Shown here piece after piece: positions 41,946 through 47,196 of a DNA stretch of 64,000 nt. Numbering within the stretch: the first letter of the stretch is position 1; every line of letters starts with the position of its first letter. The notes under the pieces were generated by a model. That model was given only the letters and a program-made list of their open reading frames with translations, ran no database searches and was not told the origin of the DNA. Where the stretch lies: NCBI GenBank assembly GCA_016916535.1, contig CP070276.1, forward strand, positions 1,674,001 to 1,738,000, read 5' to 3'. The translations under genes and the position numbers were made by a program. Source of the DNA: Dysgonomonadaceae bacterium zrk40 (GTDB lineage Bacteria > Bacteroidota > Bacteroidia > Bacteroidales > Dysgonomonadaceae).

Positions 41946-43250
41946 TTAAGAAAGTCGGAATAAGGCTTTTTTAAAGAGATTGAAATCGTTTGGTAGCTCT
42001 GTTGTCTCTTTTTTTTCCTGCATGAATGCAGCCAGTGCTTGCGGTATTTCTGTTTTGATTCCGGTGCAATCCTCCACGATCTCCTTGAACTTGGCAGGGT
42101 GAGCGGTAGCGAGAAAGATACCCGTTTCACCCGGTTGCAGTCCTTCCTTTAGGGCGAGGTACCCACAGGCACCGTGGGGGTCGAGCAGGTAACCGGTGCG
42201 TTGCTGCGCCTCTCTAATGGCATGGCAAATCTCTGCATCGTTGTAGCGGTATGCAGTGATATCGTTGGTGATGGCGTGATGGTCGTGCCCGTAAAGGTCC
42301 AGGATTCGGTCGAAGTTGCTGGGAGCACCAACATCCATGGCGTTGGCGATGGTCTGCACCGATGACCTGGGGGAGTAATCCCCCGTGAGCAGGTATTCAC
42401 GGAACACATCGTTGCGATTGTTGGCAGCGATGAATCGCTCCACCGGCAGTCCCATCCGTTTGGCGAAGAGGCCGGCGGTGAGGTTGCCCAGGTTGCCGCT
42501 GGGTACTGAGATTACAGCCTTTGCAGCAGGATTGTAGCGCATCAACTGTGCCCAGGCATGGAAATAGTAGAACGACTGTGGCAGAAACCGGGCTACGTTG
42601 ATCGAGTTGGCGGAGGTTAGCCGGAGCTGACTGTTCAATTCCTCATCCATGAAAGCGTTCTTTACGAGTGCCTGACAGTCGTCAAAGGTGCCATCTACCT
42701 CCAGTGCCGTGACGTTTTGTCCCAGGGTGGTGAACTGTGCCTCCTGGATATCGCTCACCTTACCGGAGGGGTAGAGCACGTACACACGAATCCCCTCTAC
42801 ACCGAGAAAGCCGTTGGCCACGGCACTGCCTGTATCGCCTGATGTGGCTACCAGCACCTTCACTTCGTCCTGTTGTTCCTTTTTTACGAAATGAGAGAGC
42901 ATGCGTGCCATAAAGCGCGCACCCACATCCTTGAAGGCAAAGGTAGGGCCGTGAAACAGTTCCAGCACCCAGATGTTCTCCTCCACTTGCCGTAGCGGAA
43001 TCCCGAAGCTGAGGGTATCGGCCACAATGGCATCCAGCTCATTTTGAGGGATATCATCGCCGAAGAACGACCTTGCGACGGTTTGGGCGATAGTGGTCAG
43101 GCTCAGCTCGGTGATTTCCTTGTAAAATGATGAAGGCAGCTGTCCGATGGTTTCGGGCATGTACAACCCCCTGTCGGGAGCCAGTCCTTTCACGACGGCT
43201 TCCTTCAGGGAGACGGCGGGCGATTGTTTTTGGGTGCTGTAGTAGCGCAT
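41946..43250 (-). CDS. thrC: threonine synthase
   Basis: ThrC converts O-phosphohomoserine to threonine with PLP. The 434-residue protein has the PLP lysine in FHGPTFAFKDVGARFMARML near residue 110, ATSGDTGSAVANGFLG, and the phosphate-binding SVPSGNLGNLTAG. The N-terminus RYYSTQKQSPAVSLKEAV is typical of the group. It is the last gene of thrA-apgM-thrC and begins 10 bases after the mutase-like gene. Confidence 0.96.
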   Translation of the reverse strand: MRYYSTQKQSPAVSLKEAVVKGLAPDRGLYMPETIGQLPSSFYKEITELSLTTIAQTVARSFFGDDIPQNELDAIVADTLSFGIPLRQVEENIWVLELFHGPTFAFKDVGARFMARMLSHFVKKEQQDEVKVLVATSGDTGSAVANGFLGVEGIRVYVLYPSGKVSDIQEAQFTTLGQNVTALEVDGTFDDCQALVKNAFMDEELNSQLRLTSANSINVARFLPQSFYYFHAWAQLMRYNPAAKAVISVPSGNLGNLTAGLFAKRMGLPVERFIAANNRNDVFREYLLTGDYSPRSSVQTIANAMDVGAPSNFDRILDLYGHDHHAITNDITAYRYNDAEICHAIREAQQRTGYLLDPHGACGYLALKEGLQPGETGIFLATAHPAKFKEIVEDCTGIKTEIPQALAAFMQEKKETTELPNDFNLFKKALFRLS

Positions 43251-43260
43251 GTTATTTTAG

Positions 43261-44475
43261 CTATAGGTTGAAAACTGCTTTGATGAACTGGTTGCCATGT
43301 AGCTGTCCGTAGCTTCCTTCTCTTGCAGCGAATTCATCGTAGTGCTGCACGTTGTCGGGTTGAATTTCTCTGTGCCAGATCAGGAAGGGAATTGCATCAC
43401 GGGTGTGGGTGCGTTTGGCACAGGGGGTGGGGTGGTCCGGCAGGATCGCGATGGTGACCGGCTCGTCCCAGTTCAGCGTCTCCTCGTATATCGTCTTGAT
43501 GATGCGGGCATCGAGATACTCTATCGTCTTCACCTTCAGATCCACATCACCTTCGTGGCCCGCTTCGTCGCTCGCCTCCACATGGAGGTAGACGAAGTCT
43601 TTCTCCTTTAAGGCTTTCAGTGCGGCTTCGGCCTTTCCCTCATAGTTGGTGTCGTACAATCCGGTGGCTCCCTCCACCATAATCACATCCAGCCCCGCAT
43701 AGACTCCTATCCCACGAATCAGGTCTACTGCTGAGATCACAGCCCCACTACGAATGGGGTAGATCTCGCTCAGCGGTTTCATTTGTGGGCGATAGCCGGG
43801 CGACCAGGGCCAGATGCTGCTGGCCGGATGCATACCCTCCTTGATTCTTTTCCTGTTCACCGGATGATCGCGCAACAGCTCCTGAGAGGCCATGATAAGC
43901 CTGTTCAGTGCGTCAGCGGTAGCTTCGGCAGCCGGGTGGGAAGCCCTGATCAGGTAGGGACGAAAGGGAAGTTCAGGAATGTCGTGCGGCGGGGTACACT
44001 CAATCCGTTTGTCACCCCCCTGCATTTTCAGCAGGTGGCGGTAGGAGACACCGGGGTAGAAGCGAAAAGTCTCATCTCCCAGTTTCTCGTTCAGGAAATG
44101 AATCAGTTCTTCTGCCTCTTCGCTGGAGATGTGCCCGGCAGAGTGATTGATCAGCTGATCACCCTCGATGCAAACCAGGTTGCAACGCATGGCCATCTCC
44201 CCGGGATGTATCTCCACCCCCATGCTGGCAGCTTCCAGCACCCCTCTTCCCTCGAACACGGCAGGAAGGTCATAACCCAGCACCGAGAGATTGGCAATCT
44301 CACTGCCGGGGGCAAAGCCGTCGGGCACCGTGTGCAGTAGACCGTTTCTGCCCTTGCGGGCCAGCAGGTCCATGTAGGGTGTATTGGCTGCCTGTATTGT
44401 TGTTTTGTCTCCCAAGGCAGGGATAGGTTCGTCGGCCATTCCGTCGCCCAGGATGATGATTGTTTTGTGTGACAT
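43261..44475 (-). CDS. ApgM-type phosphoglycerate mutase-like protein in the thr operon (possible homoserine kinase analogue)
   Basis: The 404-residue protein belongs to the cofactor-independent phosphoglycerate mutase (archaeal ApgM) branch of the alkaline-phosphatase superfamily. ILGDGMADEPI at the N-terminus supplies metal ligands, PGSEIANLSVLGYD carries the phosphorylated serine, and HVEASDEAGHEGDVDLK and ILPDHPTPC complete the two-metal site. ATG 44475 starts one base after the thrA stop. No thrB is visible, and comparative genomics has proposed such proteins as homoserine kinase analogues. I regard that role as likelier than glycolysis, given its place between thrA and thrC, but it is inference. 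Confidence 0.85.
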   Translation of the reverse strand: MSHKTIIILGDGMADEPIPALGDKTTIQAANTPYMDLLARKGRNGLLHTVPDGFAPGSEIANLSVLGYDLPAVFEGRGVLEAASMGVEIHPGEMAMRCNLVCIEGDQLINHSAGHISSEEAEELIHFLNEKLGDETFRFYPGVSYRHLLKMQGGDKRIECTPPHDIPELPFRPYLIRASHPAAEATADALNRLIMASQELLRDHPVNRKRIKEGMHPASSIWPWSPGYRPQMKPLSEIYPIRSGAVISAVDLIRGIGVYAGLDVIMVEGATGLYDTNYEGKAEAALKALKEKDFVYLHVEASDEAGHEGDVDLKVKTIEYLDARIIKTIYEETLNWDEPVTIAILPDHPTPCAKRTHTRDAIPFLIWHREIQPDNVQHYDEFAAREGSYGQLHGNQFIKAVFNL

Positions 44476-44476
44476 C

Positions 44477-46921
44477 TTAGCGGATGTTAGCAATGGAAAT
44501 GATATCGGCAAAGACACCGGCAGCGGTGACGCTTGCACCGGCACCGTATCCCTTAATCACCATGGGGTACTCGTTGTACCGCTCGGTGGTGATCATGATG
44601 ATGTTGTTGCTTCCCTCCAGGTCGTAGAAGGGATGACCTTTTTCTACCTCACGCAACCCGACCTCGCACCTTCCTTTGTCGTAGGAAGCTACAAAACGGA
44701 GTTTCTTCTCTTCCCTGGCAAGCTCCCTGCGACGTTCTTCGAAAGCGGTATCCAATTGGGGGATAGTCTGCCAGAACTCCTCCAGGCTTCCTTCAAAATA
44801 TTGTTGCGGTACGAACAACTTTTTCACCACATCCGACTGTTCGATGTGGGCACCCGCCTCACGTGAGAGGATCACCAACTTGCGCGTCACATCCAGTCCG
44901 CTCAGGTCAATGCGCGGATCGGGCTCGGCGAATTGCGCCTCAACCGCCATGCTGATGGCTTTGCTGAAAGGAACCTCCTCGCTGAGTGTGTTGAAGATGA
45001 AGTTGAGGGTACCGGAGAGCACCGCCTCCAGCTTCACGATTCTGTCGCCCGAGTTGGTGAGTGAGTTCATCGTGTTGATGATTGGCAACCCGGCTCCCAC
45101 GTTGGTTTCAAATAGGAATTTGACACCGCTCTTGCGGGCTGTCTCCTTCAGGTGGTGATAGTTGTCGTAGGCCGATGAGGCAGCGATCTTGTTGGCGGTG
45201 ACTACCGATACGTTCTTCGCCATCAGCTCATCGTAGATTTCTGCGATAAGCGGACTGGCGGTACAGTCCACGAAGACCGAGTTGAAGATGTTCATCTTCA
45301 GGATCTCATTGCGGATCAACTCCGGAGAGCTCTTGACGCCGTGTTCCATCAGGTTGTCGAAGTAACCCTCGAGTGGGATACCATCGCGGGTGAAGAGTGC
45401 TTTGCGACCGTTGGCGATGCCAACAATGTTAATGCGCAACTTGTTCTGTTCTTTCAGCGTTAGCTGTTGCTGTCTGATTTGCTCCAGCAGGCGGCTGCCC
45501 ACGGTGCCGGTTCCAACGACGAAGAGGTTCAGCTCCTGATAGGGGGAGAGGAAGAAGGAGTCGTGTATGACGTTGAGCGACTTTTTAAGATCCGTCCTGG
45601 ATATGACGCAGGAGATATTGGTTTCACCGGCACCCTGTGCCAGGGCCACGACACTGATACCGTTCCTGCCGAGAGCCCCGAAGAACTTGCCGGAGATACC
45701 CGGTACATGCTTCATGTTCTGACCCACAATGGCGATGGTAGCCAGCTCGTACTCGATGATGATCTCATTGATACTGCCCATGGCGATCTCATGTTCAAAC
45801 TCGCTGTTGAGCACCTTCTGAGCGGTAGTGGCATCCTGTGTACGGACACCAATGGAGGTGCTGTTTTCTGAGGAGGCCTGCGAAACGATGAAGACGCTGA
45901 TGCCATTGTCGGCCAGGGCAGAGAAGATCCGTTTGTTGACACCAATCACGCCCACCATGCCGAGGCCCTGGATGGTGATTAGTGCTGTGTCATTGATGGA
46001 TGAGATTCCCTTGATGATTTGCCCGTTGGGGTTGGGTGCGATGTTGCGGATCAACGTACCCTCGCACTCCGGACGGAAGGTGTTCTTCACCCGGATGGGG
46101 ATGTTCTTGTGGTAAACCGGGAAGATGGTGGGTGGATAGATCACCTTCGCTCCGAAGTTGGAGAGCTCAATCGCTTCGATGAAGGAGAGCTCCTCAATCA
46201 CGTATGCCGAGTTGATGATCCTGGGATCGGCTGTCATAAAGCCATCCACGTCGGTCCATATCTCCAGTACGGAGGCTTCCATCGCAGCGGCGATGATGGC
46301 TGCGGTGTAATCCGACCCGCCGCGCCCCAGGTTGGTGATGTCGCCGTTCTCGCTGCTGGAGGCGATGAAACCGGGGACGACGGCCACCTTCGGGGGGGGC
46401 ATCTCAGAGAAGGTTTTGCGGATCAGCTGATTGCAGCGTGCCAGGTCGGGTAGGTGGTTGTGGAACTGGCGGCTGGTCTTGATGAAGTGCATAGGGTCGT
46501 AGAGCTCTGCTTCATTTATCACGTGACTGATGATCAGCGACGAGAGCCGCTCTCCATAGCTGACGATCTTGTCGGAAGTTTTTTGTGAAAGATCGCCAAT
46601 CAGATAAACCCCACGCAGGATGTTGCGCAGATCATCTAATAGCTGTTGTATTTTCTGTGTCACCTCTTCCCTGAGTTCTGCAGAGAGAATCATCTTTTCA
46701 ATGATCTCCTCATGCCGCGTGATGATCTCCTCGAGGATGCTTTTGTATCCGGGGTTACTGTTCAGTGCAAAGTCGGCAGCCTGCAGCAGCCGGTCGGTTA
46801 CTCCACCCAGGGCGGAGACCACCACGACCACCGGCTCATTCTCCTTTTCAATGATCTGCTTGACCATCTTCAAGCTATCGGGGCTCCCCACGGAGCTCCC
46901 GCCAAATTTCATCACCTTCAT
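44477..46921 (-). CDS. thrA: bifunctional aspartokinase/homoserine dehydrogenase
   Basis: The 814-residue fusion catalyses the first and third steps from aspartate to threonine. The kinase (about residues 1-290) begins MKVMKFGGSSVGSPDS and has TNLGRGGSDYTAAIIAAAM. Two ACT domains follow (about 310-455), with GLGMVGVIGVNKRIF and SASSENSTSIGV-like effector loops. The dehydrogenase (about 465-814) begins LFVVGTGTVGSRLLEQI. ACT domains imply feedback by threonine. The gene is preceded by a 260-base leader with a Thr-rich peptide, so expression probably also responds to threonyl-tRNA. Confidence 0.96.
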   Translation of the reverse strand: MKVMKFGGSSVGSPDSLKMVKQIIEKENEPVVVVVSALGGVTDRLLQAADFALNSNPGYKSILEEIITRHEEIIEKMILSAELREEVTQKIQQLLDDLRNILRGVYLIGDLSQKTSDKIVSYGERLSSLIISHVINEAELYDPMHFIKTSRQFHNHLPDLARCNQLIRKTFSEMPPPKVAVVPGFIASSSENGDITNLGRGGSDYTAAIIAAAMEASVLEIWTDVDGFMTADPRIINSAYVIEELSFIEAIELSNFGAKVIYPPTIFPVYHKNIPIRVKNTFRPECEGTLIRNIAPNPNGQIIKGISSINDTALITIQGLGMVGVIGVNKRIFSALADNGISVFIVSQASSENSTSIGVRTQDATTAQKVLNSEFEHEIAMGSINEIIIEYELATIAIVGQNMKHVPGISGKFFGALGRNGISVVALAQGAGETNISCVISRTDLKKSLNVIHDSFFLSPYQELNLFVVGTGTVGSRLLEQIRQQQLTLKEQNKLRINIVGIANGRKALFTRDGIPLEGYFDNLMEHGVKSSPELIRNEILKMNIFNSVFVDCTASPLIAEIYDELMAKNVSVVTANKIAASSAYDNYHHLKETARKSGVKFLFETNVGAGLPIINTMNSLTNSGDRIVKLEAVLSGTLNFIFNTLSEEVPFSKAISMAVEAQFAEPDPRIDLSGLDVTRKLVILSREAGAHIEQSDVVKKLFVPQQYFEGSLEEFWQTIPQLDTAFEERRRELAREEKKLRFVASYDKGRCEVGLREVEKGHPFYDLEGSNNIIMITTERYNEYPMVIKGYGAGASVTAAGVFADIISIANIR

Positions 46922-47182
46922 ACCATTAATTTTTATGATCTCTGAAGTCCACAGCGCTACATCGATTCATGATGCTACTCTCTGTCAGATCAGATTGTTC
47001 CGCACGGGCGGAGTTGTGAAATATAAGATGTTGGATTGTTGTGCGATAACTGAAATTATCGCTTGTGCAGCTGAGGCCGCTTACGGATGTGAAAATTTAC
47101 CTAACCCCCCAAGGGGTCATGGTCAATGTAGTGGAGGTGCGGGTATATGTGTAATACAAATTCTGCATTGGTTGCCTTGAAT
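46922..47182 (-). promoter_or_regulatory. putative threonine attenuator leader of thrA-apgM-thrC
   Basis: Between the -7 box and thrA the transcript has a 260-base leader with the Thr-rich peptide (47097-47168) and several hairpins. These are TGACCCC/GGGGTTA (47102-47119) over the peptide's last Thr codons, GCGATAA/TTATCGC (47043-47062), and TCCGC/GCGGA (46999-47012). TGATCT also pairs at a distance with AGATCA just before the thrA start. No hairpin has a proper T-run, so either termination is atypical or the switch controls translation of thrA. Confidence 0.6.
47097..47168 (-). CDS. thrL: threonine-rich leader peptide (ThrL-like)
   Basis: The 23-codon frame from ATG 47168 to TAA 47097 encodes a peptide whose residues 6-19 read YTYTRTSTTLTMTP. 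Seven of 23 residues are threonine, and they fall within a stretch of 12, using ACA, ACC and ACT codons. It starts about 15 bases after the expected transcription start and ends 175 bases before thrA. This is the arrangement of the E. coli thr operon leader, although Ile codons are missing. I infer that a ribosome stalling for lack of threonyl-tRNA alters the following hairpins. There is no known sequence family to compare with; the support is composition and position. Confidence 0.7.
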   Translation of the reverse strand: MQNLYYTYTRTSTTLTMTPWGVR

Positions 47183-47188
47183 TTGTTG

Positions 47189-47196
47189 CAAAGATA
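47189..47196 (-). promoter_or_regulatory. -7 box (TATCTTTG) of the threonine operon
   Basis: On the minus strand TATCTTTG is a full match to the Bacteroidetes -7 consensus. It lies 20 bases before the leader-peptide ATG. A weak -33 (TTGT) is about 22 bases further upstream. Confidence 0.65.

Follow-up and report, generated by a model that had tools for sequence, protein, structure and literature searches.

Control of threonine genes by a leader peptide is the textbook case of the Proteobacteria. Does a leader of this kind also precede thrA in Dysgonomonadaceae bacterium zrk40, a member of the Bacteroidota, and at what level would it act? We analysed a stretch of 64,000 nt (the window), in which thrA lies on the reverse strand behind an intergenic region of 582 nt. 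A preliminary description of this DNA had proposed that the logic of the E. coli leader operates here, with control of translation as an alternative to termination. Our preferred reading, to which we give a probability of about 0.8, is that the leader lets threonine supply govern the thrA-homoserine kinase-thrC operon by ribosome-mediated attenuation, in the manner of E. coli thrL.

The operon, the leader peptide and the P1 hairpin

The features of the locus are collected in Table 1. The ORF of the proposed homoserine kinase overlaps the 3' end of thrA and shares its operon, to which thrC, starting 10 nt further on, also belongs. The candidate target of the leader is thrA, the first gene of this operon. 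The longest homoserine kinase ORF begins with GTG, and its first 68 nt lie within the end of thrA (window 44477..44544). Its family models align from about residue 27, which makes the internal ATG at residue 24 the probable true start.

Table 1. Positions of the leader elements and operon genes in the window.
Feature	Position	Strand	Basis
-7 promoter box TATCTTTG	47189..47196	(-)	sequence; position shared by almost all leaders of the family
Predicted leader peptide MQNLYYTYTRTSTTLTMTPWGVR, 23 codons	47097..47168	(-)	ORF reading, shuffle test and conservation
P1 hairpin ACC-A-TGACCCC / TTGG / GGGGTTAGGT	47099..47123	(-)	folding and conservation
Conserved non-coding motif UUUUCACAUCCG, 3' of P1 and the stop codon	47084..47095	(-)	alignment of the family
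P2 hairpin GCGGC/CTCA/GCTGC	47067..47080	(-)	structure kept, sequence changed
P3 hairpin GCGATAAT/TTCA/GTTATCGC	47043..47062	(-)	structure kept, sequence changed
Local hairpin TCTGA.AGAG / CGCTGTGGA, 5' of the thrA start	46948..46989	(-)	weak: one-sided changes only
thrA, bifunctional aspartate kinase/homoserine dehydrogenase I	44477..46921	(-)	NCBIfam NF006959 equivalog, 1003 bits (cut-off 726)
Proposed homoserine kinase (apgM-like)	43261..44544	(-)	TIGR02535, 534 bits; PRK04200, 553 bits
thrC, threonine synthase	41946..43250	(-)	TIGR00260, 305 bits (cut-off 167)

The -7 consensus of Bacteroidota promoters is TAnnTTTG. Judging from the position of the box, transcription should start ~5-8 nt 3' of it, ~15 nt 5' of the leader start codon; no clear -33 TTTG was seen at canonical spacing from the box in the window leader. 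The predicted peptide carries seven Thr within residues 7-18 (12 residues) and no Ile, and its stop codon lies 175 nt from the thrA ATG (46921). The preliminary description had reported the box, the frame with its Thr content and the distance to thrA, and all of these are in the sequence. When the intergenic region was shuffled 5000 times with dinucleotides preserved, no short ORF reached seven Thr in 12 codons (the best count, six, was reached six times), and any residue at 7 of 12 codons occurred in 7 of 1000 such shuffles. The Thr-rich frame is not a chance ORF; it is a short ORF that annotation pipelines have overlooked.

A hairpin, P1, has in its 5' arm the last two Thr codons together with the beginning of the Pro codon that follows. 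Its inner stem TGACCCC/GGGGTTA (47119-47113 / 47108-47102) had already been described as overlapping the last Thr codons; allowing one bulge, it can be lengthened to ACC.A.TGACCCC/GGGGTTAGGT. The loop contains the Trp codon TGG, where many relatives have a TAG stop, and among relatives the leader stop codon, UAG or UAA, often lies inside the loop. The folding energy of P1 is -12 to -14 kcal/mol. The whole leader folds with a z-score of -1.8, and 6 of 100 shuffles folded equally well; on its own, folding energy would not have been convincing for a leader structure. The P1 sequence occurs once in the genome, 5' of thrA. Its downstream flank in the window is AAATTTT (AAAUUUU in the transcript), with no strong U-run. 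The preliminary statement that no hairpin has a T-run thus holds for runs of five or more, but P1 is followed by this shorter run.

Conservation within the genus and the family

In an alignment of relatives, as the preliminary description had suggested, the peptide frame, the Thr codons and P1 were conserved upstream of thrA. This supports the E. coli-like logic that it had proposed; the translational alternative through TGATCT/AGATCA did not pass the comparison with relatives. Among 39 Proteiniphilum genomes, the genus sample, nearly every one with enough sequence had the TAnnTTTG box, the Thr peptide and P1 upstream of thrA. The peptide in this genus is of the type MQRLYSTY..TTTxTMTPWGV* or ..TMTP*. 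A search for the P1 core ACCCCTTRGGGGG gave 36 matches in 34 of the 39 genomes, 34 of them adjoining thrA; the reversed pattern, used as a control, gave 6. Genomes that lacked the exact core had the loop variants CTGG (L025) or CCGG (L042), or contigs that end early (L010, L038).

Codon use was analysed in 43 distinct leaders of the family, with positions counted relative to P1. The four Thr positions closest to P1 (-5, -4, -2 and 0) each held Thr in 30 to 42 of the 43 leaders. At codon -4, Thr was found in 37 leaders and was encoded by ACA (28), ACT (7), ACC (1) or ACG (1); at codon -2 the usage was ACC 22, ACT 9, ACA 3 and ACG 3. Outside the P1 stem the third base of the Thr codons is thus free to vary, and all four codons are used. 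Because Thr is kept while the third base changes, selection appears from these counts to act on the amino acid Thr (or its tRNA) and not on the nucleotides. The P1 core is nearly invariant within the family, and P1 therefore yields no covariation evidence there.

Two genera of the family have no thr leader, g3 (L055, L244, L245) and g4 (L059). In g3, thrA begins only 17-24 nt after another large ORF, and this genus has therefore lost the leader and probably the promoter too.

Occurrence across Bacteroidales and Bacteroidota

In 295 Bacteroidales genomes the pattern ACCCCTTRGGGGG matched 37 times: 24 matches were 5' of thrA, 2 were 5' of thrB and 11 lay elsewhere. Ten of these 11 were read, and none had a Thr tract. 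Pattern matches in or beside unrelated genes were dropped, as they had no Thr tract (L142, L146, L170, L173, L174, L183, L184, L186, L187, L191, L196, L198).

We also surveyed thrA upstream regions for a short ATG frame with at least 4 Thr in 9 codons. Such frames were found in 42 of 76 regions from the family itself (1.4 expected from shuffles), 31 of 122 from other Bacteroidales families (1.7 expected), 18 of 27 from other orders of the class (0.4 expected) and 3 of 22 from other classes (0.6 expected). Among the first three groups, the antisense strand gave 0-1 and six control residues gave 0-6. Thr-rich frames together with P1 precede thrA in ~20 Bacteroidales families (a hand count of the family labels of leader-bearing genomes), and also in other orders and a single family from a second class. 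Many of the surveyed upstream regions, such as those of genera g3 and g4, have no leader.

Across families the peptides share only a Thr (or Thr/Ile) tract and the ending ..TP* or ..TPWGV, both of which are tied to P1 (examples from different families: MQNKPPYFSYTTTTTPWGV, MMFWQLHITTTTTTTPAGV, MVSSATTITIITTP, MKNNSIKYQSSIITTQTGVAIAATIISTTTTTTP). Last Thr codons inside the 5' arm of P1 are a feature of the relatives' leaders as well as of the window. In Bacteroidales family f106, thrB stands in place of thrA behind the leader (homoserine kinase, 357 and 363 bits; L181, 1500-2592, and L182), and these leaders have runs of 8-11 Thr codons and end in TP* over P1. P1 analogues with altered arms but preserved pairing occur in other families, for example ACAACCC/GGGTTGT (L212) and AACCCC/GGGGTT. 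The distance from P1 to thrA ranges from 76 to 424 nt overall (134-379 nt within the family), with unconserved intervening sequence; it is fairly constant in other orders, at 80-112 nt in most.

Several leaders from outside the Bacteroidales mix Thr and Ile codons (L199, L205, L210, L213, L214, L217), whereas leaders of the family use Thr almost alone and Ile codons are rare in them. A shift between lineages in the amino acids that are sensed is possible.

Elements 3' of P1

The conserved motif UUUUCACAUCCG may be a pause site. Other orders and classes carry CATATNATCC at a comparable place; this sequence recurs, 10-35 nt beyond P1, across Bacteroidota orders and classes (L132, L204-L224, L296-L299, L310-L318). 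A combined pattern, CA[CT][AG]TCC or CATATNNTCC, was present in 30 of 47 leaders of the family and in 7 of 41, 7 of 15 and 2 of 5 leaders of other groups; shuffles of the same four groups gave 0.5, 0.5, 0.2 and 0.3.

The arms of P2 and P3 change in compensation across the family. P2 reads GCGGC/GCCGC, GGCAG/CTGCC, GGCAA/TTGCC, AAGCAG/CTGCTT or AAACAA/TTGTTT in relatives, and P3 reads GCAAACC/GGTTTGC, GCAAATC/GATTTGC, GCTATCC/GGATAGC or GATAACC/GGTTATT. Neither hairpin was recognised in leaders outside the family, and neither is followed by a U-run in the window.

Nearer to thrA, the preliminary description had pointed to a long-range pair, TGATCT/AGATCA (46992-46987 / 46941-46936), as a means of control. 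The pair is present but complete only in the species of the window. In the six nearest species, which include it, the G-C of the second pair is kept in two and the innermost pair in one; other lineages of the genus lack the pairing. It is paired in 64% of cells in these six species, compared to 89% for a competing local hairpin, TCTGA.AGAG / CGCTGTGGA, which lies ~25 nt 5' of the thrA start and is itself confined to the six species.

Mode of control

We computed the leader frame, the selection on its Thr codons, their overlap with P1, the conservation of frame and hairpin and the specificity for thr genes; from these we infer that the ribosome probably stalls on the Thr codons and that P1 is the likely switch. 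Transcription would begin just 5' of the 23-codon leader peptide. With charged threonyl-tRNA plentiful, the ribosome would pass the Thr codons and depart, P1 would form and expression of the operon would be low, most likely because RNA polymerase would pause and terminate at P1 or a short way beyond. Under a shortage of threonyl-tRNA the ribosome would stall on the Thr codons and cover the 5' arm of P1, so that P1 would be blocked and the polymerase would read on into thrA. This mechanism presupposes coupling of transcription and translation. For a biosynthetic operon the simplest logic is that expression is lowered by P1 and that stalling lifts this effect.

Two observations make control of transcription seem more likely than masking of the thrA start: the sequence from P1 to thrA is unconserved and variable in length, and relatives have canonical terminators at or just after P1. 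Three other Bacteroidales families have an intrinsic terminator at P1 (L057/L246, L065/L254 and L302): there the P1 stem continues through the Thr codons, and U6 (UUUUAU in L246) comes directly behind it. A terminator scan flagged 7 of 62 leaders and 1 of 120 shuffles. In other orders, T-runs of at least five lie 25-60 nt after P1 in 9 of 15 leaders (background 0.20), and seven leaders there have a U5-8 run 32-35 nt after P1. With U-tracts following P1 in three families and in other orders, several lineages are likely to use intrinsic termination within the leader. Within the family itself, P1 was rejected as a canonical intrinsic terminator (0 of 47 leaders). Across leaders, positions +5 to +15 behind P1 are enriched in T, and the longest T-run within 25 nt of the hairpin did not exceed background.

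Classical antiterminators were also considered. Pairings that looked attractive by eye (e.g. L050, L046, L224) did not hold up: neither a 2:3 pairing of the G-arm of P1 with CATATNATCC nor one of the G-arm with the 5' arm and loop of P3 showed covariation, and swapping partners between leaders gave P values of 0.97 and 0.69, respectively. Masking the 5' arm in folding gave leaders no extra stability over shuffles apart from that of the downstream hairpins. Because an antiterminator is unsupported, the designs that remain are those in which the ribosome directly blocks a terminator stem or a pause hairpin. The lack of support for an antiterminator lowers the case for a classical four-segment attenuator but not that for ribosome stalling, which is still viable because direct blocking needs no 2:3 pairing.

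Among the other explanations, the one that we take most seriously, without favouring it, is that P1 is a pause hairpin, which together with UUUUCACAUCCG holds the polymerase for the ribosome, the decision being taken at P2/P3 or at a Rho-dependent site. The trp and his leaders of E. coli use pause hairpins, and the spacing between P1 and the motif is that typical between hairpin and 3' end in hairpin pauses. Conservation of the motif past the stop codon, compensatory changes in P2 and P3, a z-score of -2.1 for folding of the downstream part alone in the family and the fixed U-run ~33 nt after P1 in seven leaders of other orders all fit such a pause. P2 and P3 have no U-runs in the window, however, and are confined to the family as far as they were recognised, and here too the antiterminator pairing is unsupported. 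Improbable in our view is control of translation, in which the position of the ribosome on the leader would set the masking of the thrA start with no premature termination. It would account for the lack of a strong terminator in the window species, and the local hairpin close to the thrA start and the 80-112 nt between P1 and thrA in most leaders of other orders would suit it. Against it stand the unconserved TGATCT/AGATCA pair and a region between P3 and thrA that is unconserved even inside the genus; the unconserved sequence and variable distance between P1 and thrA argue against fixed sequestration of the start.

No nucleotides are better conserved than those of P1 and UUUUCACAUCCG, as would be expected if P1 and its flanks were an RNA element that binds a protein or a metabolite, the Thr tract being incidental. 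We consider this very improbable: Thr is kept at the codon level with all four codons in use, the otherwise unrelated peptides of other families have only the Thr tract and P1 in common, the association is with thrA or thrB only, and no Rfam family matched. Short frames are common, and the ORF might be put down to chance or to a free small protein with no part in thrA regulation; the shuffles, none of which equalled the observed Thr density, and conservation across families only upstream of thr genes make this a negligible prospect. A broader proposal extends our preferred reading of a ribosome-mediated attenuator. It would be an undescribed, phylum-wide design of Bacteroidota in which a single hairpin, P1, both closes the leader ORF (UAG often lying in its loop) and serves as the switch, UUUUCA..AUCC is a phylum-specific pause or termination signal, and there is no antiterminator. 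We hold this generalisation to be tentative and rather unlikely.

Relation to known leaders

The leader resembles E. coli thrL (Rfam RF00506, Thr_leader) in its Thr-rich peptide before thrA, in control codons that run into a hairpin and in the thrA-kinase-thrC order of the operon, and by analogy a response to charged threonyl-tRNA would be expected. Unlike thrL, the window leader has no Ile codons, no strong U-tract terminator beside the hairpin and no supported antiterminator, and the second gene of the operon is a different kinase gene. The RF00506 covariance model gave no match at its gathering score in the window and 12 relatives, nor did a T-box, a riboswitch or any other Rfam family match in them. 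The leader very probably works like thrL but is not a member of Rfam Thr_leader, and convergence with thrL is possible. Searches of plasmid DNA found nothing.

The Bacteroid-trp motif (RF01692; PMC2864571) is likewise a leader with a candidate cis-regulatory role before an amino acid operon of Bacteroidetes but, judged by its name, before a different operon; it had no match in the window at the Rfam gathering score, nor in the leader at an E-value of 5. A 2010 survey knew leader-peptide systems only from Proteobacteria, Actinobacteria and its own Firmicutes case, histidine leader peptides before hisS/hisZ (PMC2965389), which differs from the present one in phylum, amino acid and gene. Within the Bacteroidota, leader-peptide attenuation has been proposed for amino acid operons of Flavobacterium psychrophilum in a report whose main text has no thr leader and mentions neither thrA nor threonine (PMC9723704), and long 5' UTRs of Bacteroides thetaiotaomicron contain sORFs "reminiscent of leader peptides" (PMC7366714). 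In open-access full text we found no description of a threonine leader from Bacteroidota; subscription surveys (e.g. cited in PMC4833913), which lie outside this scope, may hold one.

Leader-peptide attenuation is poorly documented in the Bacteroidota, where the thr leader reaches widely, and the P1-bearing leader is a candidate new RNA family. Bacteroidota dominate the gut and anaerobic digesters, and thr leaders may serve as a conserved reporter for amino acid sensing and ribosome-polymerase coupling in this phylum. If the single-hairpin design were indeed phylum-wide, it would imply that transcription and translation are coupled in Bacteroidota.
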